From assembly GCA_020850945.1 (NCBI GenBank), contig JADZDR010000012.1, forward strand, positions 1-42,349: a stretch of 42,349 bases of DNA, given 5' to 3'. Origin of the DNA: Acidimicrobiia bacterium (GTDB lineage: Bacteria > Actinomycetota > Acidimicrobiia > UBA2766). Shown one piece after another: positions 11,075 to 32,720 of the stretch. A program made the position numbers and the translations under genes. Each line of letters begins with the position of its first letter. The first letter of the stretch is position 1. A model generated the notes under the pieces. It did not search any database, was not told the origin of the DNA, and saw only the letters and a program-made list of their open reading frames with translations.

Positions 11075-11150
11075 TCCGGGGTAGCTCAATTGGCAGAGCG
11101 GCGGACTGTTAATCCGTAGGTTGTGGGTTCGAGTCCCACCCCCGGAGCCA
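11075..11150 (+). tRNA. tRNA-Asn (anticodon GUU)
   Basis: The 76-nucleotide gene folds as a cloverleaf. The acceptor arm is TCCGGGG paired with CCCCGGA, with discriminator G and an encoded CCA at 11148-11150. The D arm contains GCTC...GAGC. The anticodon arm is GCGGA/TCCGT with loop CTGTTAA and anticodon GTT at 11108-11110, hence Asn. The T arm is GTGGG/CCCAC with loop TTCGAGT. The structure appears intact and functional. Confidence 0.97.
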
Positions 11151-11310: not shown

Positions 11311-11994
11311 GTGGGGCTGTTGTGCCTGGATGGCGTCTCGAAGACGTATGCGTCGGGTTCGCTGCGTGTCGGCGCACTCGTCGATGTCTCGATGCAGGTC
11401 GTTCCCGGCGAATTCGTGGTGGTGACGGGCCCGTCGGGGTCTGGCAAGTCCACGTTGCTGCATGTCGCGGCCGGCTTGGATCGTCCCGAGGCGGGGTCGG
11501 TGACGCTGGACGGCACGGATGTCTACGCGATGTCGGAGCGGCGCCGGCTGCAATTGCGCCGCAAGGATCTGGGGTTCGTGCATCAGTTCTTCAACCTGCT
11601 GGCGCCGCTGTCAGCCGTCGAGAACGTCGCCTTGCCGCTCGTGCTCGCCGGTGTGCGGCCTGACGACGCCAGGGTCGAGGCGGAGGTGGTGCTGGCACGG
11701 CTCGGTTTGGCCGACAGGTTCGGGCACAAGCCGGCTGAGCTCTCCGGTGGGCAGCAGCAGCGTGTAGCGATCGCACGTGCTGTCGTGCACAGGCCGCGCC
11801 TTGTGTTGGCGGACGAACCGACGGGGAATCTGGACAGCAAGGCAGGTGCTGGCGTGCTCGCCCTGTTGTCGGAGCTGTCCGAGGAGCTCGGTGTGGCCGT
11901 TCTTCTCGTGACCCATGACGCGTCGGCTGTGTCATTCGGGGATAGGCATGTGGCGTTGACGGATGGGTATCTGCTCAGCGGAGCTCGGGTGTGA
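11311..11994 (+). CDS. ABC transporter ATP-binding protein, MacB/LolD type
   Basis: The 227-residue ATPase has every motif intact: Walker A GPSGSGKS (40-47), Q-loop Q92 in FVHQFFNLLAPL, signature LSGGQQQRVAIARA (144 onward), Walker B LVLADEPTGNLD with E169, and H-loop H202 in LLVTHD. The DEPTGNLD form and the short N-terminal block are typical of the LolD/MacB/FtsE class that drives FtsX-type permeases by mechanotransmission rather than moving substrate through the membrane. The permease gene follows directly and the degenerate ATPase-like gene comes third, so this is the catalytic subunit of the complex. The operon begins 160 bases after tRNA-Asn, and no integrase or regulator lies between them. 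Confidence 0.92.
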   Translation: MGLLCLDGVSKTYASGSLRVGALVDVSMQVVPGEFVVVTGPSGSGKSTLLHVAAGLDRPEAGSVTLDGTDVYAMSERRRLQLRRKDLGFVHQFFNLLAPLSAVENVALPLVLAGVRPDDARVEAEVVLARLGLADRFGHKPAELSGGQQQRVAIARAVVHRPRLVLADEPTGNLDSKAGAGVLALLSELSEELGVAVLLVTHDASAVSFGDRHVALTDGYLLSGARV

Positions 11995-12031
11995 ACGCGG
12001 CTGCCGGAGCGGTCGGGCGGAGAGTCGGATT

Positions 12032-14632
12032 GTGACTCTCATCGAGGTCCGGCCCCACCGGACGGAGGGGGACCGGGACCAGCTCGGCGGAGCACTGCGT
12101 CGGTCGCGGTGGGCATGGTTGGTTGCGTGGCAATGGGTGCACTGGCGTCATCTCGACTGGCGACGTGGCCTTGCGGTGGTCTTGGGGTTGGGTGTCGGAA
12201 CGGCCGCGATCCTGGCGGTGTTGATCCTGCACGACTCGATCGTGGCGCCTTTCGAGGCGCTGGACGGGCGGATTCATTCTGTGAATCCTGACGCGGTCGT
12301 GGTCCGGTCCAGGATCGGGAACTGGATGCCTGCAGAGGACTTGCGACTGCTGCCTGAATCGTTTCAGCCGGTTCCCGTCGCGGGTGGGTTCGCTGACGTG
12401 GTCGCCGAGGGTTCGGGGAGCCAGGTTGGAGCTCTGGTGATCGGCTCGGACTGCCGGGTTGAGCGTCTCCTGGGTGATTTCGACTGTGAGGGGAACCTGA
12501 AGGCGAACCTCGAGGATGCACCTGCCGGAGTTGGCGTTCCTGTGGCCCTGACTGCTCGGCTCGCCGGGGCGCTCGGGGTCGGCGAGGGGGACCGGCTCGT
12601 CTTTCCGGGTGGTCAGGACGCTTTCGTGCAGGCGGTTCTGGACGATTCACGTCTCGACCAGGTGAACTCGGGGTACCTCGCCGTGGGAGAGGTGATGGGT
12701 GTGGCGGAGCTGTTCGGACATCCCGACGAGTTGTCGGCGATCTACTTGAGCAGCCCAGGGGGCGACATCGAGGCCGATGTTGCAGCGACCTTCGGGGGTC
12801 GGGCTGAAGCCATGCGACCGAACGGCCGGTCCCGTTATCTTGTGCCGGCTCTGGAGAACCTGCGGCGTTTCCTCGTGCTCGGCGGTATGGTCGCGGCCGC
12901 GCTGGCCGTGTTCTTGGGGGCGAGCGTGTTCGTCACCGCCGCGGTTGAGCGCCGCCGCCAGATCGCAACGGTGGAACTGCTCGGCGAAAGTCGTCGGCGT
13001 CTGTTTGTCGGTTTCATGGCGGAGGGCGCCATGTTGGGCGTGGCGGGCGCAGCTGTGGCGTTGCCCGTCGGGGTTGTCCTGGGCCGTTGGCTCATCGGGC
13101 TGTTCACCGCGAACCTGCTCGATGGCACGGGCGTGCATCTCGACTACCAGGTGCCGTACCGGCTGCTCGTGGGCTGTGCCGTGCTCGCTGTCGGGCTCGG
13201 AGTGGTGGCTGCGGTCGTACCGGTCCTCTCGGTGTTCCGTCAGTCGCCGGCCGAGATGCTCGCCCACAATCGGACGCGGGAGTATGCGGGTCTGGCGAAG
13301 GGATCCTGGTCGGTCCTGTTCGCCCTCTTGTGTGCCGGAGGCGTTGGGCTCATGTACGGAGCCGGGTCGGGGCGGCTTCCCGAGGTCGTCGTGTACGGTG
13401 CGCATGTCCTGTTCATCGCCGGCGCCATCGGGGTTACCGTGCTCTTGGCTCCGCGTCTCGTCCTGCGTCTGCCCCGTCCGACGCGGGGTCGACGCCTTCA
13501 TCTCGCCACGTCTTTCGTGCAGACGGACCTGGGTCTGGCGCCGTGGCGGACGGGCTTCACCGTCGCGATCCTCAGTGCGGGTGTAAGTCTCCTTGTCGGC
13601 CTCAACGGCTTGTTGGTCTCGCTCCAGGCGACCGTGGAACATCGCGCTGTCGTACTCGACGACCGTCTCCTGCTGTTGGGCCGGGCCGTGGGTGATCCAA
13701 CCGAGCATGCCCTCGACCCGGACCTCGTCGCCCACATTGAGGGCCTTCCTCAGGTCGAAGCGGTCTCGCCACTTGCCGAGACCGCGCTGGCTGGCAAGAC
13801 CACCGTGTTCGCCTACCCAGCCGAGACACACCGGAGTCGCTTCGTCCTCACCGGCACCGGGGGAGAGGCGGCCGGCCAGGCAGCCGCACTCGGCGCGGGC
13901 AAGGTGCTCCTGAGCCGCTTCGCCGCGAACAGCTGGGGTGTCGGTGTCGGCGATACGATCACGTTGCCAACTCGGGCAGGTTCCCGCCAGCTCGAGGTGG
14001 CCGGCGTTGGCGATCTCCTCATGGGTAGCGACAACGGCTACGGCAAGGTCGTAGTAGCCGACATCGGCATTGCCCGCGACCTGTGGGGAATTCGGGACAC
14101 ATCGCTGCTCGTCGCGACCAAGCCCGCCACGCACGCCGCCGACATAGCCCAGGCTCTGCCGGCAAGGGGTCGAGTTCACGTCTACGACCGTCAGACGATG
14201 ACAGAGGCAGGTCAGCTGCATCTCCGCCGCGGGTTCAGCCCTGTTCTCGGTGTCGGCTGGATGATGCTTGCCATAGCCGCCATCGGCGTTCTGCTCATGC
14301 TGGTGCTCACCCTCTGGGACCGGCGCCGCCAGCGTGCCGCACTGCGCCAGCTCGGCATGAGCTACCCCCAAGAGCTCTGGGCCCTGCTCGCAGACGCCGC
14401 GATGCTCACCTTTCTCGCTGTCCTCTTCGGTACGACCGGCGGGCTCATCTACGGCTGGGGCAACACACTCGCCGGTCCAGTCCTCTTCTCGATCAGCCCC
14501 CCATTCACGATCCCGTGGCATGCGATCGCCGTGGCGACCGCCATCGCCGCTGCCGTGTGCCTGATCGGTGCACTGCTCCCCATCGCATCCACGAGACGCT
14601 TTGACACGCTGAACGCACTCAACGACGACTGA
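12032..14632 (+). CDS. FtsX-type ABC transporter permease, ten predicted membrane helices
   Basis: The protein has about 866 residues with two FtsX-like modules. One helix follows the N terminus (GLAVVLGLGVGTAAILAVLIL). A large extracytoplasmic domain of about 220 residues comes next, then three helices ending near VPVLSVFRQSPAEML. Two more helices, another helix (VAILSAGVSLLVGLNGLL), a second external domain and three C-terminal helices complete it. QSPAEMLAH and the final TRRFDTLNALND are typical of these permeases. The GTG at 12032 is preceded by GGAG at a workable distance, whereas an earlier ATG at 11963 lies inside the ATPase gene. Such permeases export peptides, lipids or antibiotics, or regulate cell-wall enzymes. 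No sequence feature here tells which. It presumably pairs with the upstream ATPase. Confidence 0.88.
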   Translation: MTLIEVRPHRTEGDRDQLGGALRRSRWAWLVAWQWVHWRHLDWRRGLAVVLGLGVGTAAILAVLILHDSIVAPFEALDGRIHSVNPDAVVVRSRIGNWMPAEDLRLLPESFQPVPVAGGFADVVAEGSGSQVGALVIGSDCRVERLLGDFDCEGNLKANLEDAPAGVGVPVALTARLAGALGVGEGDRLVFPGGQDAFVQAVLDDSRLDQVNSGYLAVGEVMGVAELFGHPDELSAIYLSSPGGDIEADVAATFGGRAEAMRPNGRSRYLVPALENLRRFLVLGGMVAAALAVFLGASVFVTAAVERRRQIATVELLGESRRRLFVGFMAEGAMLGVAGAAVALPVGVVLGRWLIGLFTANLLDGTGVHLDYQVPYRLLVGCAVLAVGLGVVAAVVPVLSVFRQSPAEMLAHNRTREYAGLAKGSWSVLFALLCAGGVGLMYGAGSGRLPEVVVYGAHVLFIAGAIGVTVLLAPRLVLRLPRPTRGRRLHLATSFVQTDLGLAPWRTGFTVAILSAGVSLLVGLNGLLVSLQATVEHRAVVLDDRLLLLGRAVGDPTEHALDPDLVAHIEGLPQVEAVSPLAETALAGKTTVFAYPAETHRSRFVLTGTGGEAAGQAAALGAGKVLLSRFAANSWGVGVGDTITLPTRAGSRQLEVAGVGDLLMGSDNGYGKVVVADIGIARDLWGIRDTSLLVATKPATHAADIAQALPARGRVHVYDRQTMTEAGQLHLRRGFSPVLGVGWMMLAIAAIGVLLMLVLTLWDRRRQRAALRQLGMSYPQELWALLADAAMLTFLAVLFGTTGGLIYGWGNTLAGPVLFSISPPFTIPWHAIAVATAIAAAVCLIGALLPIASTRRFDTLNALNDD

Positions 14633-14661
14633 CTGAGACAGACAAACAGGGAGACACGCGG

Positions 14662-15408
14662 ATGCGCACCTGGGAAGCGCGACGTCACAGGCCGGCCGAA
14701 GCTGTGCTCACCCTTGATGGCGTGTGGGCGCAGCGGCCCAACAGCTCGGATCCGGACAGGCCCCGCGTGGAACGTCTCCGCGCTGTCGATCTCAAGTTGC
14801 GCCGTGAGGAGATCACCATCCTCTGTCACACGACGAACCGGCTCCTCGGCGATGTGATCCTCGGTGACCATCCCCGAACTCGTGGCCGCATCTACTACCG
14901 CAACGAGAACCTCGAATGTGCCGGGACCGGCCACCGCAGGCCTGACGGCGTCATCGGCCTAGGCAGCCGAACTCGCCTGCCACCAACCACAGGAACAGTC
15001 GCCCAAGGCCTCCAAGACCTCCTCGTAGCGACCGGGGCCACGCCCCGCGAAGCCCAACGTAGTATCGCCGCCGTCCAGGATCGCCTTGCCGTGGCCGGCC
15101 TCGACGACTACCTCACCGCACCCCACCCAGCACTCAGCCCCGAACAGCTCCGGGCCGTCGACGTCGCACGCGTCATGCTCTGGCAACCCGAGCTCATTGT
15201 CGCTTTCGACCCCTGGTCGAACGCGCATGTGACGACGGCCCGCCGTGTCTGGCTCGATACCCTCGCGGCCGCAGCCCAAACCGGGACCGCCGTCCTGATC
15301 CACACCCGACACGGACGTCCCGATCTGGGCGCGCCTGTCACCACTCGGACCTTCCGCATCAAGCTCACAGGCGACCTCCTACCTGAAAGAAGTGCCGCCG
15401 CTTCCTGA
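14662..15408 (+). CDS. Degenerate ABC-ATPase-like protein (pseudo-ATPase)
   Basis: The protein has 248 residues, the length of an ABC nucleotide-binding domain, and ABC-like order. It has an N-terminal strand block (AVLTLDGVWAQRP), RAVDLKLRREEITILCHTTNRLLGDVILGD where Walker A should be, LSPEQLRAVDVARVMLWQPELIVAF for the signature and Walker B, and TAVLIHTRHGRPD for the H-loop. The P-loop Gly-Lys-Ser is gone. LSPEQ replaces LSGGQ. Walker B Asp-Glu reads Phe-Asp. The H-loop His is Arg. The frame is open throughout with a good start (GGGAGA 8 bases before ATG), so it is a maintained gene rather than a broken one. It probably forms a catalytically dead partner of the intact ATPase or a regulatory subunit. 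This is an inference from motif alignment. Confidence 0.62.
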   Translation: MRTWEARRHRPAEAVLTLDGVWAQRPNSSDPDRPRVERLRAVDLKLRREEITILCHTTNRLLGDVILGDHPRTRGRIYYRNENLECAGTGHRRPDGVIGLGSRTRLPPTTGTVAQGLQDLLVATGATPREAQRSIAAVQDRLAVAGLDDYLTAPHPALSPEQLRAVDVARVMLWQPELIVAFDPWSNAHVTTARRVWLDTLAAAAQTGTAVLIHTRHGRPDLGAPVTTRTFRIKLTGDLLPERSAAAS

Positions 15409-27002: not shown

Positions 27003-30000
27003 CTAGGACCCGAGGTCTCGCTCCATGCCGTCCTCGACAGCGCGGATCAGGCGCGGGCGCAGGTCGGCAACGGCCACGATGTCGTGCACCGATCCCACGT
27101 CGCGTGCACGCCCGATCGTGTGGATCGCGTCGAACTCCTCTGCGACCTCGCCCAGCTTCTCCGCCCGCACGCGGGCAGCCGTCTCGTCGAGACGCGCCAT
27201 GAGTGCCGCCTTCTCGGCCGCATCGGCATCCTCGAGCTCGGCCTCGAGCTCACGCACGCGCGGATCTGCCGAGGTACGGGCCCGCACCTCGCCCGCGAAC
27301 ACGACACCGGCGGCGGGGGCACCGCCGATCACCGACGCGAACGATCCCTCGACGGCCAGCACCTGCATGTTGTCGTGCAAGGCGTGTGAGAAGACGACGA
27401 AGGCGCCACCGTGGTAGCGCGAGACGACACAGAAGACGACAGGTCCGCGGAAGTTGACGACGGCTCGCCCTATCTCCGCCCCGTACTCGAGCTGGAGCTT
27501 GCGCATCGACTCGGGTGAGCCGTCGAACCCGGAGAGGTTCGCGAGGACGACGACGGGCCGGTTCCCAGACGCGGAGTTGAACGCCCGCGCGACCTTCTTC
27601 GACGACTGTGGGAAGAGCGTGCCGGCGGTCCACGTCTCCGGTCCGTCCGCGGGGTGGAATCCGTGCCGGGCAAGCGGTTTGGACTCGATGCCGATCAGGC
27701 ACACGGGATGGCCGCCGAGGTGCGCATCCCAGACCACGGCGGTCTCTGCATCCGCCATGTCGGGCCAGCGCTCGAGTGGCGCGCTGTCCTGATCCGTGAC
27801 CGCCCGCATGACGGCACGGATGTCGAAGGGCCGCTTGCGCTCCGCGTTGCGCTCGGCCGAGAAGACGTCGCCGATCGTCTCGAAGTCCTCACCGGGATGC
27901 GGGGAGAGGCGGACGTCCCGCGTCACGGGGTCGGTGCTGTGCATGTCCCGCGGGAAGTGCTCGCCGCGCGCGACATAGGTGTGGGCATAGTGCTCGAAGA
28001 GGATGCGGCACGCCGCCCGCAGGTCCGGCGCCCAGTACTGCGCCTGGCCGTCGGGACCCATGACCCGGTCATAGCCGCCGATCCCCAGGTTGTCCTCCGC
28101 ACTCACACCGCCGGAGAAGTCCAGCGACTGCTTGCCGGTGAGGACCATGGCGCCTTCGGGTGTCATCACGAGGATCCCGCGGGTGTGCATGAGCATCGTG
28201 GCCTCAGCGTTCCAGTAGGGCTGCGCGCCCACGTTGATGCCGTTCACGACCACGTTGATCTCACCGCCGGTCTGCGTGAAATCGACGATGCGCCGGAGCA
28301 CGCGGCTGATCCAGTCCATGTTCTCCGTGCCGGAGTCCATGGCGATGCGGGCCCCTGCCGAGACGGCATACCACTCGACGGGAACCGACCTCTCCTCGGC
28401 GAGATCGAGGGCTGCCAAGATCCGCCTGCACTCGGCTTCGGCCAGAGCCCCGAGCTGGCGCGTGGGGTCGCCGAGGAGGATCACGCGTTCGACGCCCTCG
28501 GCGTACTTCTCCGTGAAGTTGCGGACGAGTCCGCACACGATGCCCGCCTCGTTGCGACCGTAGGGCCGTGTGACGGGCACGAGACGTGTCCCGTCCGAGT
28601 CGAGGTCGTGCTCCTCGAACTCGCCCGGGGGAAGGTCGGAGTGCCGCGCGTCGCCCGCAGCCGCGAGCATCTCCACGATCTCGTACGGATACGTCGTGCC
28701 GTGGCTGCGTGTCGTCACGACCTTGCGGCGGTAGTCCGACAGGGGTAGGAGGGGTTCGGTCTTCGGTTCCGACCAGTGAAGCTCGATCCCGGAGTGGGCG
28801 GTGCTCGAGATCTCCACCGTCGCGTCCTCGAAACTGCCACCCAAACGCCGGAACCTACCGCGCAGCACGACCTTCTCGATCCCGAGACCCTCGGTGAGCG
28901 GCGCCCCCTTCAGGCTGAGGGCGTAGATCTCGTCACTCGAGATGTCGACCGGTGGCCAGATGTGGAGGAAGACGCGGTTCCAGTGGAGACGGCGGCCGGC
29001 GGGCCGCCGTGACTGGAAGATGCGGATCGCGGCGACGCACTCGTGCAGGACACGCTCGAAGTGCGGCATGCCGACGGCTCGCCCGGCCGCATCCCGGATC
29101 GGCGTCATGTCACGGACTTCAGCGAGTGCAAAGAGTCGCTCGTCCGCCTCGTTCTCACGTGCCACACCCCGGAAGAGCCACACGTCCTCGGACGACGGGA
29201 GGCGCTCGAGGTGGAAGTTGGTGAGCCTGTCGAGCTGGAGGCGGGTCGCCTGGGCGGGATGGATCCCCCGGTACTCGCGGCGTTCCCGCAAGCCGCCGTC
29301 GGAGTCGGGCACGAAGGTGTAGGGCTCGATGCTGTCGGGAGATCCCGGCGTCTTCCCGGTGCCGACAGCAACCGTGAGCCGGGTGGGTGTGCGGGCGAAG
29401 CGGACACTCTGCACGACGCCCGCGACGGTGCCGGCGTCTGGCGCGGGGCCGGCTTCGTCCTCGAGCAGTGTGAGGTCGATGACGATCTCACGCTCGGCCG
29501 GCAGGTCCGCTGTGAGGGCGGCGATGTGGGCGAGAACGGCCGCCATGTCCGTGTCCAGGCACACGGCCGTGACGACGTCCACACGGTCGTCGGCATCGCG
29601 GAGGTGGCAGCGCGCGAGGTCGGTGCCGCGTCCCACGCCTGATTCCGAGGTCACGAAGTCACAGAGGTCCTCACCCCGGTAGATGCGCCGTACGAGCATC
29701 TCGAGAAGGAGGTCCCGCTGCTCCTGCCTCTCCCACAGGGACGTGAGGAGGGGCCTGTCCACCTGGTAGGGGCTCTCCACGAGCGCGCCCATGTGCTCGT
29801 CCCGCGACGCGGTGGGCCCCTCCACGATCGCGACGAGATGCGCACGCGCATCCTCGATGGCACGCCGGCGGGCGGCGGCATAGAGCGGGCCGTCGACGAA
29901 CCGGAAGCGGACCTCGCGGGCGAGGTCCTCCACGGGCGGATGGCGCAACTCCGCAGCCGAGATGAGGCGGTCGAGGAGCATCGCGAACTTCGGGTCCCGG

Positions 30001-32579
30001 TTCGACCGTTCCGACGAGGGGAGCTCGAGGCGGCGTTCGAGGATGGCGAGGACGGCCGGCACGACTCCGTCGAGGTGCCGCTGTGCGCGGGCGATGCGGA
30101 AGAGCGCCTCCTCCAGGTCGGGATCCACCTCGAGATCCCCGACTCCGTATCGGGCGAGGGCACGTTCGAGCCCACGCATGAAGCGGTCCGGCAGGCCGGC
30201 GCCGTGCTGTTCGATGGAGCGGAGGTACTGGTTGAAGTGCTCCCGGGCTGCGCGCCGGGGTGACAGCACCCCGGGTACCCGCTCGGGGCGGTGACGCGAC
30301 AGCACACACATGTCCGCGAAGGCCTCGAGGACTTCGAGCTCTGCCCGCCGTGTCGCGGGATCGTCGACGGGCAAGTCGCGGACGAGCGACGCGTACGATT
30401 CCACGGCCACGCCTGCCTCTCCGTCGGTCACGTCGTAGCCCGAGGCATGGGCCGCCATGTCAGCGAGCGCCCGCAGGCATCTGTCCCGCACGGTCGGCGC
30501 CTCACTCGCGGTCTCGCCGGTGGGCGAGGTGAGCTCACCCGCCGGCTTCGCGGTCTGGCTGCGGTCCACGGATTCGAGGCGGACGAGTGCCGACCCCGCG
30601 TCGACCTGATCGTTCGCCGCCGTCAGGACCTCCCGCACGCGGCCGGCGAACGGGGCCGCCACGGCGAGCTCCATCTTCATCGACTCGAGGACGGCGACGC
30701 GCTCGCCTTCCCGCACCACGTCGCCCTCAACCACGCACACCGTGACGACGACACCCGGCGCCGGTGCCCGCAGCGTCGCCCCGTCGTCGCGCCCGATCGT
30801 GTGCGGGGCGCCGTCCACCTCGACGATCAGCTTCATTCCCTGCGCCACCGCCACGGTCCGGAATGTCGCACCGAGCAGAGTGACGCGGCGTTCGTACGCA
30901 CCGAGGCGCGTCACCTGCGTCTCGTACGTCTGCCCGCCGAGGGTCACGCGGAACCTGTCCCCACCCCGCTGTTGCACACGACCCCGATACGTGGCGCCTC
31001 GATGACGCAGCTCGACATCCCGTCCGACGGCCTCGTCGAGAGTGGCTCGTCCCCGCACGGCACCGGACAGGAACCGTGTGCGTTCGGCTTCCGTCTCGGT
31101 GTCGTACACCTCGATCGCGGCCTGCACGAGGGCGACGGTGGCGAGTCGGACGTCGCCCGTGAGGTCCTCCCCCGCCACTGCTGCCTTGTCGAGCCAGCGG
31201 ATGTCCGCTGTGCCCTCGACGACGCGCGGGTGCGCGGCCAGGTGGAGGAGGAGTCCCTTGTTGGTGGCTCCTCCCTCGATCACGACGGACGTCTCGGCCA
31301 GCGCCCGCCTCAGACGGGCGAGCGACTCGTCACGACTGGCACCCCAGGCGACGATCTTGGCGATCATGGAATCGAACTCGGCGGGGACGGAGTCGCCCGC
31401 CGTCACCCCCGCGTCGACACGGATCCCGGGTCCGGCCGGCGCCCGGAACAAGGCGACACGGCCGGGTGCAGGCGCGAATGCGTTGTCGGGGTCCTCTGCG
31501 CAGAGGCGCACCTCGACGGCATGGCCCCGCGGGCGGGGGGGCTCACCGACGAGGGAACCGCCCGCTGCCAAGCGCATCTGCAGGCGAACGAGGTCGAGGC
31601 CGGTCACGGCCTCGGTCACGGTGTGCTCGACTTGGAGGCGGGCGTTCACCTCCATGAAGGCGAACGCGTCGGTCGCGGGGTCGTAGAGGAACTCCACGGT
31701 CCCGACACCCGCGTACCCGGACACCTCGGCGATGCGGACGGCGGCACGGGCGAGGTCGCCCTCGCGATCGGGCGTGAGCGCGGTCGACGCCGATTCCTCG
31801 AGGACCTTCTGGTGGCGACGCTGCACACTGCAGTCCCGGACTCCCACGGCCCAGACCGTCCCCTGTACGTCCGCGGCGATCTGCACCTCGACGTGCCGGG
31901 CCGCGCCCATCGCCCTCTCGATGAAGACCCGCGCGTCGCCGAATGCCGCCTCCGCCTCTTGACGTGCCCGCACGAACGCCTCGTCGAGCTCGGTCTCGTC
32001 GCGTACGAGGCGGATGCCGCGACCGCCTCCACCCGCCGCTGCCTTCACGACTACGGGATACCCGAGGCGTGCCGCGTGGTAGCGGGCCTCCGCCTCTGTC
32101 TCGACGACTCCTCCACTCCAGGGGACGACGGGAACCTCGGCCTTCTCGGCGAGCTCCTTGCTGCTCACCTTGTCGCCGAGGACACGCATGACATGGGGGG
32201 GAGGACCCATGAACGTGATGCCGTGCCGGGCGCAGAGCTCGGCGAACTCGGCGTTCTCGGCGAGGAAACCCCACCCGGGCCAGACGGCATCCGCTCCGCT
32301 CGCGAGGAGGGCGGCCTCCATGCGACGCAGATCGACGTACACGCTGTGGCGCCGCCCCGTGCGATCGTCGGCCAGGAAGGGCGCCCCGAGGGCGTGCGCC
32401 CGGTCTGCTTCGCGCACGAACATGGCGTGGGCATCGGGTTGCGTGTAGAGGGCGACCGTCTCGTAGGCCGTTCCGTTCTCGGCGTTCTCGTCCCGCACGG
32501 CCCGGATGAGGCGCATCGCAGCCTCACCTCGGTTCGCTATCGCTATGCGGCTGAAGGCTGGTTCGGGTCTCGGGTTCAT
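27003..32579 (-). CDS. Giant single-chain acyl-CoA carboxylase (BC-BCCP-CT)
   Basis: The protein has 1858 residues and joins all parts of a biotin-dependent carboxylase. Biotin carboxylase is at about 8-470, with IAIANRGEAAMRLIRA, the ATP-grasp loop AAAGGGGRGIRLV (180-192), and MEVNARLQVEHTVTEA (309-324). A biotin-carrier domain lies at about 600-670, with the biotinylated Lys at K635 in VLESMKMEL. A long central region (about 675-1340) has no catalytic motif, and a carboxyltransferase fills about 1350-1858 (SAGARIAMDSG, RPVVVLANLSGFDGS, VEGSFASVIGGAPAAGVVFAGEV). The order and spacing resemble eukaryotic ACC more than the separate bacterial subunits. It should make malonyl-CoA or a related product for lipid synthesis. 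The ATG at 32579 is preferred to a GTG at 32696. Confidence 0.92.
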   Translation of the reverse strand: MNPRPEPAFSRIAIANRGEAAMRLIRAVRDENAENGTAYETVALYTQPDAHAMFVREADRAHALGAPFLADDRTGRRHSVYVDLRRMEAALLASGADAVWPGWGFLAENAEFAELCARHGITFMGPPPHVMRVLGDKVSSKELAEKAEVPVVPWSGGVVETEAEARYHAARLGYPVVVKAAAGGGGRGIRLVRDETELDEAFVRARQEAEAAFGDARVFIERAMGAARHVEVQIAADVQGTVWAVGVRDCSVQRRHQKVLEESASTALTPDREGDLARAAVRIAEVSGYAGVGTVEFLYDPATDAFAFMEVNARLQVEHTVTEAVTGLDLVRLQMRLAAGGSLVGEPPRPRGHAVEVRLCAEDPDNAFAPAPGRVALFRAPAGPGIRVDAGVTAGDSVPAEFDSMIAKIVAWGASRDESLARLRRALAETSVVIEGGATNKGLLLHLAAHPRVVEGTADIRWLDKAAVAGEDLTGDVRLATVALVQAAIEVYDTETEAERTRFLSGAVRGRATLDEAVGRDVELRHRGATYRGRVQQRGGDRFRVTLGGQTYETQVTRLGAYERRVTLLGATFRTVAVAQGMKLIVEVDGAPHTIGRDDGATLRAPAPGVVVTVCVVEGDVVREGERVAVLESMKMELAVAAPFAGRVREVLTAANDQVDAGSALVRLESVDRSQTAKPAGELTSPTGETASEAPTVRDRCLRALADMAAHASGYDVTDGEAGVAVESYASLVRDLPVDDPATRRAELEVLEAFADMCVLSRHRPERVPGVLSPRRAAREHFNQYLRSIEQHGAGLPDRFMRGLERALARYGVGDLEVDPDLEEALFRIARAQRHLDGVVPAVLAILERRLELPSSERSNRDPKFAMLLDRLISAAELRHPPVEDLAREVRFRFVDGPLYAAARRRAIEDARAHLVAIVEGPTASRDEHMGALVESPYQVDRPLLTSLWERQEQRDLLLEMLVRRIYRGEDLCDFVTSESGVGRGTDLARCHLRDADDRVDVVTAVCLDTDMAAVLAHIAALTADLPAEREIVIDLTLLEDEAGPAPDAGTVAGVVQSVRFARTPTRLTVAVGTGKTPGSPDSIEPYTFVPDSDGGLRERREYRGIHPAQATRLQLDRLTNFHLERLPSSEDVWLFRGVARENEADERLFALAEVRDMTPIRDAAGRAVGMPHFERVLHECVAAIRIFQSRRPAGRRLHWNRVFLHIWPPVDISSDEIYALSLKGAPLTEGLGIEKVVLRGRFRRLGGSFEDATVEISSTAHSGIELHWSEPKTEPLLPLSDYRRKVVTTRSHGTTYPYEIVEMLAAAGDARHSDLPPGEFEEHDLDSDGTRLVPVTRPYGRNEAGIVCGLVRNFTEKYAEGVERVILLGDPTRQLGALAEAECRRILAALDLAEERSVPVEWYAVSAGARIAMDSGTENMDWISRVLRRIVDFTQTGGEINVVVNGINVGAQPYWNAEATMLMHTRGILVMTPEGAMVLTGKQSLDFSGGVSAEDNLGIGGYDRVMGPDGQAQYWAPDLRAACRILFEHYAHTYVARGEHFPRDMHSTDPVTRDVRLSPHPGEDFETIGDVFSAERNAERKRPFDIRAVMRAVTDQDSAPLERWPDMADAETAVVWDAHLGGHPVCLIGIESKPLARHGFHPADGPETWTAGTLFPQSSKKVARAFNSASGNRPVVVLANLSGFDGSPESMRKLQLEYGAEIGRAVVNFRGPVVFCVVSRYHGGAFVVFSHALHDNMQVLAVEGSFASVIGGAPAAGVVFAGEVRARTSADPRVRELEAELEDADAAEKAALMARLDETAARVRAEKLGEVAEEFDAIHTIGRARDVGSVHDIVAVADLRPRLIRAVEDGMERDLGS

Positions 32580-32720
32580 CCGGTCGAGCTTGTCGGGATT
32601 GCGTTCGTGTTGCGGCGAGGCCGGGACTCCGACCGCCGGGTCCACCACCTCGTTACACCCCCAAGCACCTCTCCCCCTGACAGGAAGATTCGACACACGC
32701 GGCCGATCCCTTGCCCGTCC

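Follow-up and report, generated by a model that had tools for sequence, protein, structure and literature searches.

A degenerate ABC ATPase-like subunit is encoded with a canonical ATPase and a predicted YbbP-like permease in a family of Acidimicrobiia

Introduction

Why would a transporter operon that contains an intact ABC ATPase also keep a second ATPase-like protein without working catalytic motifs? The question is raised by three genes at positions 11311-15408, forward strand, of a 42,349-nucleotide stretch of DNA from an Acidimicrobiia bacterium (assembly GCA_020850945.1, contig JADZDR010000012.1; hereafter the window). In this order they encode a canonical ATPase, a permease with two FtsX domains and a degenerate ATPase-like protein. 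An earlier note on this DNA had described an intact ATPase, an FtsX-type permease and a 248-residue protein in one operon. It interpreted the third protein as a maintained pseudo-ATPase, and proposed a structure prediction of this protein and a search for its homologues as checks. Here we describe both, together with an analysis of the permease and its coupling helices.

Results

The operon and its surroundings

All three reading frames are open and located on one strand, with intergenic gaps of 37 and 29 bases (Table 1). The frames, the motifs of the first product and the two FtsX domains found in the second (PF02687 in Pfam, E 1.7e-21) agree with the operon composition given in the earlier note. 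A tRNA-Asn gene (11075-11150, forward strand) is located directly upstream. Beyond the operon no conserved gene neighbourhood is found between the window and G001, a genome of the same genus. The flanking genes differ, and therefore the neighbourhood provides no clue to the substrate. Given these different surroundings, the operon was possibly inserted beside the tRNA-Asn gene. The operon itself encodes no TesA-type hydrolase, and none was found in the neighbouring genes covered by a Pfam scan. Further along the window (27006-32696, reverse strand), a 1897-residue single-chain acyl-CoA carboxylase carries a biotin carboxylase, a biotinyl domain, a weakly matching eukaryote-type ACC central region (4e-12) and a carboxyl transferase.

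Table 1. Features of the operon, in window coordinates
Feature	Position	Strand	Basis
Canonical (live) ABC ATPase, 227 aa, MacB/LolD/FtsE type	11311..11994	+	All motifs intact; NCBIfam LolD 228 bits
Permease, 866 aa, two FtsX domains, predicted 10 TM and two extracellular domains	12032..14632	+	PF02687, AlphaFold, Foldseek
Coupling helix 1 (aa 306-318), consensus Arg lost at aa 315	12947..12985	+	Alignment of 12 subfamily and 16 outside permeases
Coupling helix 2 region (aa 763-781), subfamily-invariant Arg768 and Glu781	14318..14374	+	Same alignment of 12 and 16 permeases
Degenerate (catalytically dead) ABC ATPase-like subunit, 248 aa	14662..15408	+	Canonical-only HMM, AlphaFold, Foldseek, dN/dS
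Walker A/P-loop remnant HTTNRL (aa 56-61), 3 residues shorter, Lys lost	14827..14844	+	Motif alignment
ABC signature remnant LSPEQ (aa 158-162)	15133..15147	+	Motif alignment
Walker B and D-loop remnant (aa 178-189, LIVAFDPWSNAH)	15193..15228	+	Motif alignment
H-loop position (aa 216), His to Arg, TRH	15307..15309	+	Motif alignment

The first product has the complete set of ABC ATPase motifs, GPSGSGKST, the Q-loop Gln, LSGGQ, LVLADEP and VTHD. Its scores are below the NCBIfam equivalog cut-offs for LolD (228 versus 307.75 bits), FtsE (201 versus 264.85) and MacB (195 versus 966). An FtsX-fold permease with an extracellular domain and a MacB/LolD-type ATPase identify the system as a type VII ABC transporter.

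The third product is a degenerate ABC ATPase-like protein

The third product has no match in Pfam, where the ABC_tran threshold is not reached, and in NCBIfam gives a weak FtsE match alone (2e-6, residues 131-216). However, an HMM built solely from the canonical ATPases of this family detects it (E 3e-9). AlphaFold, supplied with seven degenerate sequences alone, predicted a compact domain (pLDDT 76.7, pTM 0.78); like the permease model below, it was built from a shallow alignment. In a Foldseek search of the PDB with this model, the ABC domain of E. coli MacB is the leading match (E 6e-13; TM-scores 0.67-0.72). The ATPase domains of MacB, BceA and FtsE lead the matches, with LolD close behind. 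Since the HMM contains only canonical sequences and the fold prediction only degenerate ones, the resemblance to ABC ATPases is not a chance one. The third product is thus homologous in sequence to canonical ABC ATPases and is predicted to adopt their fold, not an unrelated one.

In contrast to a functional ABC ATPase, it is altered in Walker A, Walker B, the LSGGQ signature, the Q-loop and the H-loop. In register, Walker A reads HTTN---RL. The Q-loop is IGLGSRT and has no Gln, and Walker B is LIVAFDP, with Phe in place of the Asp and Asp in place of the catalytic Glu. The losses listed in the earlier note stand for the Walker A Lys, the Walker B Asp and the H-loop His, but the catalytic Glu was replaced by Asp and not erased. 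The signature, listed there as lost, is without both Gly and retains its L, S and Q.

In G001, an ortholog with 64% identity is located 3' of the same permease (68%). On the 5' side of this permease, at the contig edge, is the end of a live ATPase gene whose front part is on another contig. The order live-permease-dead is retained, with the live gene cut by the contig end. Between the window and G001, the dead subunit has a dN/dS of 0.21, compared with 0.16 for the permease and 0.12 for the available part of the live ATPase; these Nei-Gojobori estimates are approximate, as dS is about 1.5. Judged from these sequence comparisons, purifying selection acts on the dead-subunit gene. A block that is not part of any catalytic motif, RGRIYYRNENLEC.G.GHRRPD, is strongly conserved between the two closest dead orthologs. 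The intact frame, the ortholog and the low dN/dS support the proposal that the protein is maintained.

Degenerate subunits accompany one permease subfamily and are eroded to different extents

A profile of the degenerate subunit finds exactly seven strong members (261-314 bits; G000:C12, G000:C75, G000:C78, G001:C521, G002:C108, G003:C298 and G003:C222). Each of the four genomes sampled from this Acidimicrobiia family, which are MAGs and in part fragmented, has at least one, and the intact degenerate copies other than those of the window and G001 are spread over three genera. The next match, at 116 bits, is a live ATPase; since the profile was built from the same seven members, this gap and not the scores is the evidence. 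The canonical-only HMM finds each of the seven independently. Every one is linked to a permease of a single subfamily, either adjoining it or in an operon with it, so the homologues are indeed found with FtsX-type permeases. With the predicted ABC fold and the purifying selection, this favors the pseudo-ATPase interpretation of the earlier note.

All seven have lost the signature and the Q-loop Gln, and the remaining motifs are eroded to different extents. The copies in G000:C75 and G000:C78 retain a GKST P-loop and a DEP Walker B and pass Pfam ABC_tran (1e-8). The G003:C222 copy is at the threshold, and the G001 ortholog, like the window copy, has no match. In the window protein, the G001 ortholog and G003:C298, the P-loop is three residues shorter and has no Lys, and another residue stands in place of the Walker B Asp. 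Retention of Walker A and B in the less eroded members suggests that the ancestor was an ATPase subunit of the same system. The ATPase tree groups the degenerate subunits weakly (63/78) and on very long branches; judged from it, a single origin is possible.

The subfamily permeases form one clade (SH-aLRT 100). They are present in all four family genomes and, among over 700 genomes, in that family only. In the other 391 genomes of the class the subfamily is absent, with remote matches in two, and in the phylum sample only remote relatives are found. Searches of genome contigs gave three MAGs only with the permease and, in a broad search, no match with the dead subunit; a plasmid search found none. 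The nearest permeases outside the subfamily have one canonical ATPase adjoining in every fetched stretch that yielded an ATPase at all. A separate pseudo-ATPase gene is therefore as unusual as had been supposed. G000 also carries ordinary one-ATPase systems (G000:C76 and G000:C61). Because these coexist in the same genome, the dead subunit tracks the permease subfamily and not simply the organism.

The position of the live ATPase gene varies. In G002 and G003 the dead subunit adjoins a permease with no live ATPase adjacent, either because the contig ends there or because a stand-alone ATPase is encoded elsewhere. Live ATPases of the same subfamily are found at G002:C14 (L130 5374-6141), at G003:C104 (L129 5029-5817; near a contig end) and at G000:C74 (L131 5345-6103). 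No permease is present beside these three in the fetched stretch, and they could serve permease/dead-subunit sets encoded elsewhere. One subfamily permease, G000:C52, has a live ATPase alone adjoining.

Additional observations concern the surroundings of other subfamily members. The last 89 bases of G000:C75 (L051 4956-5044) are identical to the first 89 of G000:C55 (L052 1-89), and the start of G000:C75 also matches G000:C55. This overlap suggests the order permease-live-dead-permease and is likely an assembly break in a duplicated array. In G002:C108, a gene for an MpaB/Lcp-type oxygenase (L050 6361-7236) is located between three subfamily permeases and is a possible clue to the substrate. 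Near two further subfamily permeases are frames that resemble UbiA-type prenyltransferases by eye (L052 2474-3784 and L053 2-1039).

The two coupling helices of the permease have diverged

The AlphaFold model of the permease (pLDDT 81.5, pTM 0.81) has E. coli YbbAP as its best PDB match in Foldseek (E 1.1e-19). The permease is therefore predicted to be YbbP-like, with two fused FtsX units, 10 TM helices and two extracellular domains. In the model, coupling helix 1 comprises residues 308-316 between TM2 and TM3, and coupling helix 2 comprises residues 765-773 between TM8 and TM9. The two YbbA subunits of YbbAP are docked on separate coupling helices (PMC12646458). In pneumococcal FtsEX, the contacts made by the coupling helix are essential (PMC7468199).

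The full permease alignment was too diverse for a pattern scan, and the coupling helices were compared between 12 permeases of the subfamily and 16 outside it. The BLOSUM similarity between coupling helices 1 and 2 ranges from -30 to 33 in the subfamily and from 28 to 78 outside (p 2e-5); as the divergence is one evolutionary event in one clade, the p value overstates independence and the statistics are descriptive. An Arg at position 315 is found in none of the subfamily permeases and in 13 of the 16 others. Conversely, Arg768 and Glu781 are each present in 12/12 subfamily permeases and 0/16 outside, where these positions are occupied by other, mostly hydrophobic residues. Such divergence is as expected if each coupling helix docks a different ATPase subunit.

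Discussion

These results suggest, with slightly better than an even chance in our estimate, that the operon encodes a YbbAP-like type VII (MacB/FtsX-class) ABC machine whose ATPase pair, usually made of identical subunits, is a live/dead heteromer, with the dead half as a permanent structural partner and ATP used at a single site. The one permease, with its two pseudo-symmetric FtsX halves, would offer two coupling helices. The canonical ATPase would dock on one and the degenerate protein on the other. Composite site A would consist of the Walker A and B motifs and the Q- and H-loops of the live subunit, opposed by the improper signature LSPEQ. At composite site B no working P-loop would be present, so the LSGGQ of the live subunit would have nothing to act on. 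The motor would run on a single, weakened site, with the live subunit binding ATP or hydrolysing it slowly. In mechanotransmission, one permease half would be moved against the other, which would stay fixed.

Since every loss is on the same chain, pairing of the live with the dead subunit would affect both composite sites. By motif count, site A would lack LSGGQ and site B the P-loop Lys, the Walker B Asp and the H-loop His, leaving no composite site fully canonical. In this respect the pair would differ from TAP, TM287/288, Pdr5 and CFTR. These also have eroded ATPase motifs kept by selection, and Pdr5 shows a comparable breadth of loss, including the signature LNVEQ. However, their losses converge on one composite site while the other is canonical (PMC7756269), and they have other membrane folds than that of FtsX. 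The analogy to asymmetric nucleotide-binding domains drawn in the earlier note is imperfect: such pairs are known, but their losses are distributed differently. In the type II importers RbsA and NupO of B. subtilis, one ATPase half has no Walker A Lys, and NupO also has no Walker B Asp and Glu. Their halves are fused in one chain with an importer fold, and one degenerate site is assigned (PMC11466899); the loss in the window protein goes further.

Closer relatives do not provide a precedent. E. coli YbbAP-TesA has the arrangement predicted here, two fused FtsX units with 10 TM helices, two extracellular domains and two coupling helices (PMC12646458), but contains two identical ATPase subunits and the TesA hydrolase, whereas the window operon has a dead ATPase-like gene and no hydrolase gene. 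MacB, LolCDE, FtsEX and BceAB have ATPases of the same subfamily and the FtsX-type permease fold, but two identical ATPase subunits per complex, and no degenerate partner gene is described for them in the reviews searched (PMC5985334, PMC11466899). No type VII system that has a dead ATPase as a gene of its own was found in the literature searched, which covered few subscription papers.

Several observations could be explained differently. With both of its sites compromised, a live/dead pair might be a poor ATPase, and the permease could be driven by a live homodimer without the dead subunit; both considerations run counter to a heteromer. The dead subunit may instead be a regulatory brake on a live homodimer that is the motor, as in YbbAP. 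It would compete for a coupling helix or cap the live ATPase, and thereby switch off or tune the machine. The live ATPase has every motif, and by motif logic swapping in the dead subunit would stop the motor, since the live/dead pair has no fully canonical site. Stand-alone live ATPases in some genomes (G002:C14, G000:C74) would also allow subunit ratios to vary. Nonetheless, both subunits are encoded in one operon in the window, which argues for a fixed stoichiometry, and the coupling helices have diverged in all 12 subfamily permeases, as for permanent and different partners. On the sequence comparison, this divergence is more readily explained by a dead subunit built into the ATPase pair as its second half than by a loosely associated regulator, and we consider a brake unlikely, although it is the most serious of the alternatives.

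Loss of all nucleotide motifs, together with the block conserved outside them in the two closest dead orthologs, would also be consistent with an ABC-like protein recruited to another job outside the motor, for example as a scaffold that binds another protein. This appears improbable to us. All seven relatives are linked to the permease subfamily, the window copy keeps the predicted ABC fold, and the less eroded members with Walker A and B point to ATPase-subunit ancestry in this system. The GKST P-loop and DEP Walker B of G000:C75 and G000:C78 are what a sensor that binds nucleotide in an unusual way might retain, but with a shortened P-loop, no Lys and a replaced Walker B Asp in the window protein, its ortholog and G003:C298, such a role is very unlikely. 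A decaying pseudogene of a second ATPase gene, as the absence of any catalytic motif in the window copy might suggest, is scarcely credible given the intact frame, the 64% identical ortholog, the dN/dS and the intact degenerate copies in three genera. A pseudogene or a chance frame was ruled out on the ortholog, the dN/dS and the predicted fold.

The heteromeric live/dead machine may extend beyond the window. A tentative proposal, which we hold with clearly less confidence than that for the operon itself, is that this bacterial family evolved type VII machines with an obligate live/dead pair and no canonical ATP site. The dead half would be eroded to various degrees in paralogous systems, and in some genomes a stand-alone live ATPase would serve several permease/dead-subunit sets.

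The window dead subunit is invisible to the Pfam ABC model, which is a warning for annotation: dead partners beside other FtsX-type permeases may be overlooked. In MacB, LolCDE, FtsEX and YbbAP, the need for both ATP sites and the route of force to each permease half are usually probed with engineered mutants. The family described here offers a natural graded series, from a partner with an intact P-loop and Walker B to one without any motif, beside permeases with changed coupling helices. Such a series is a test, provided by nature, of why a type VII motor has a second half.
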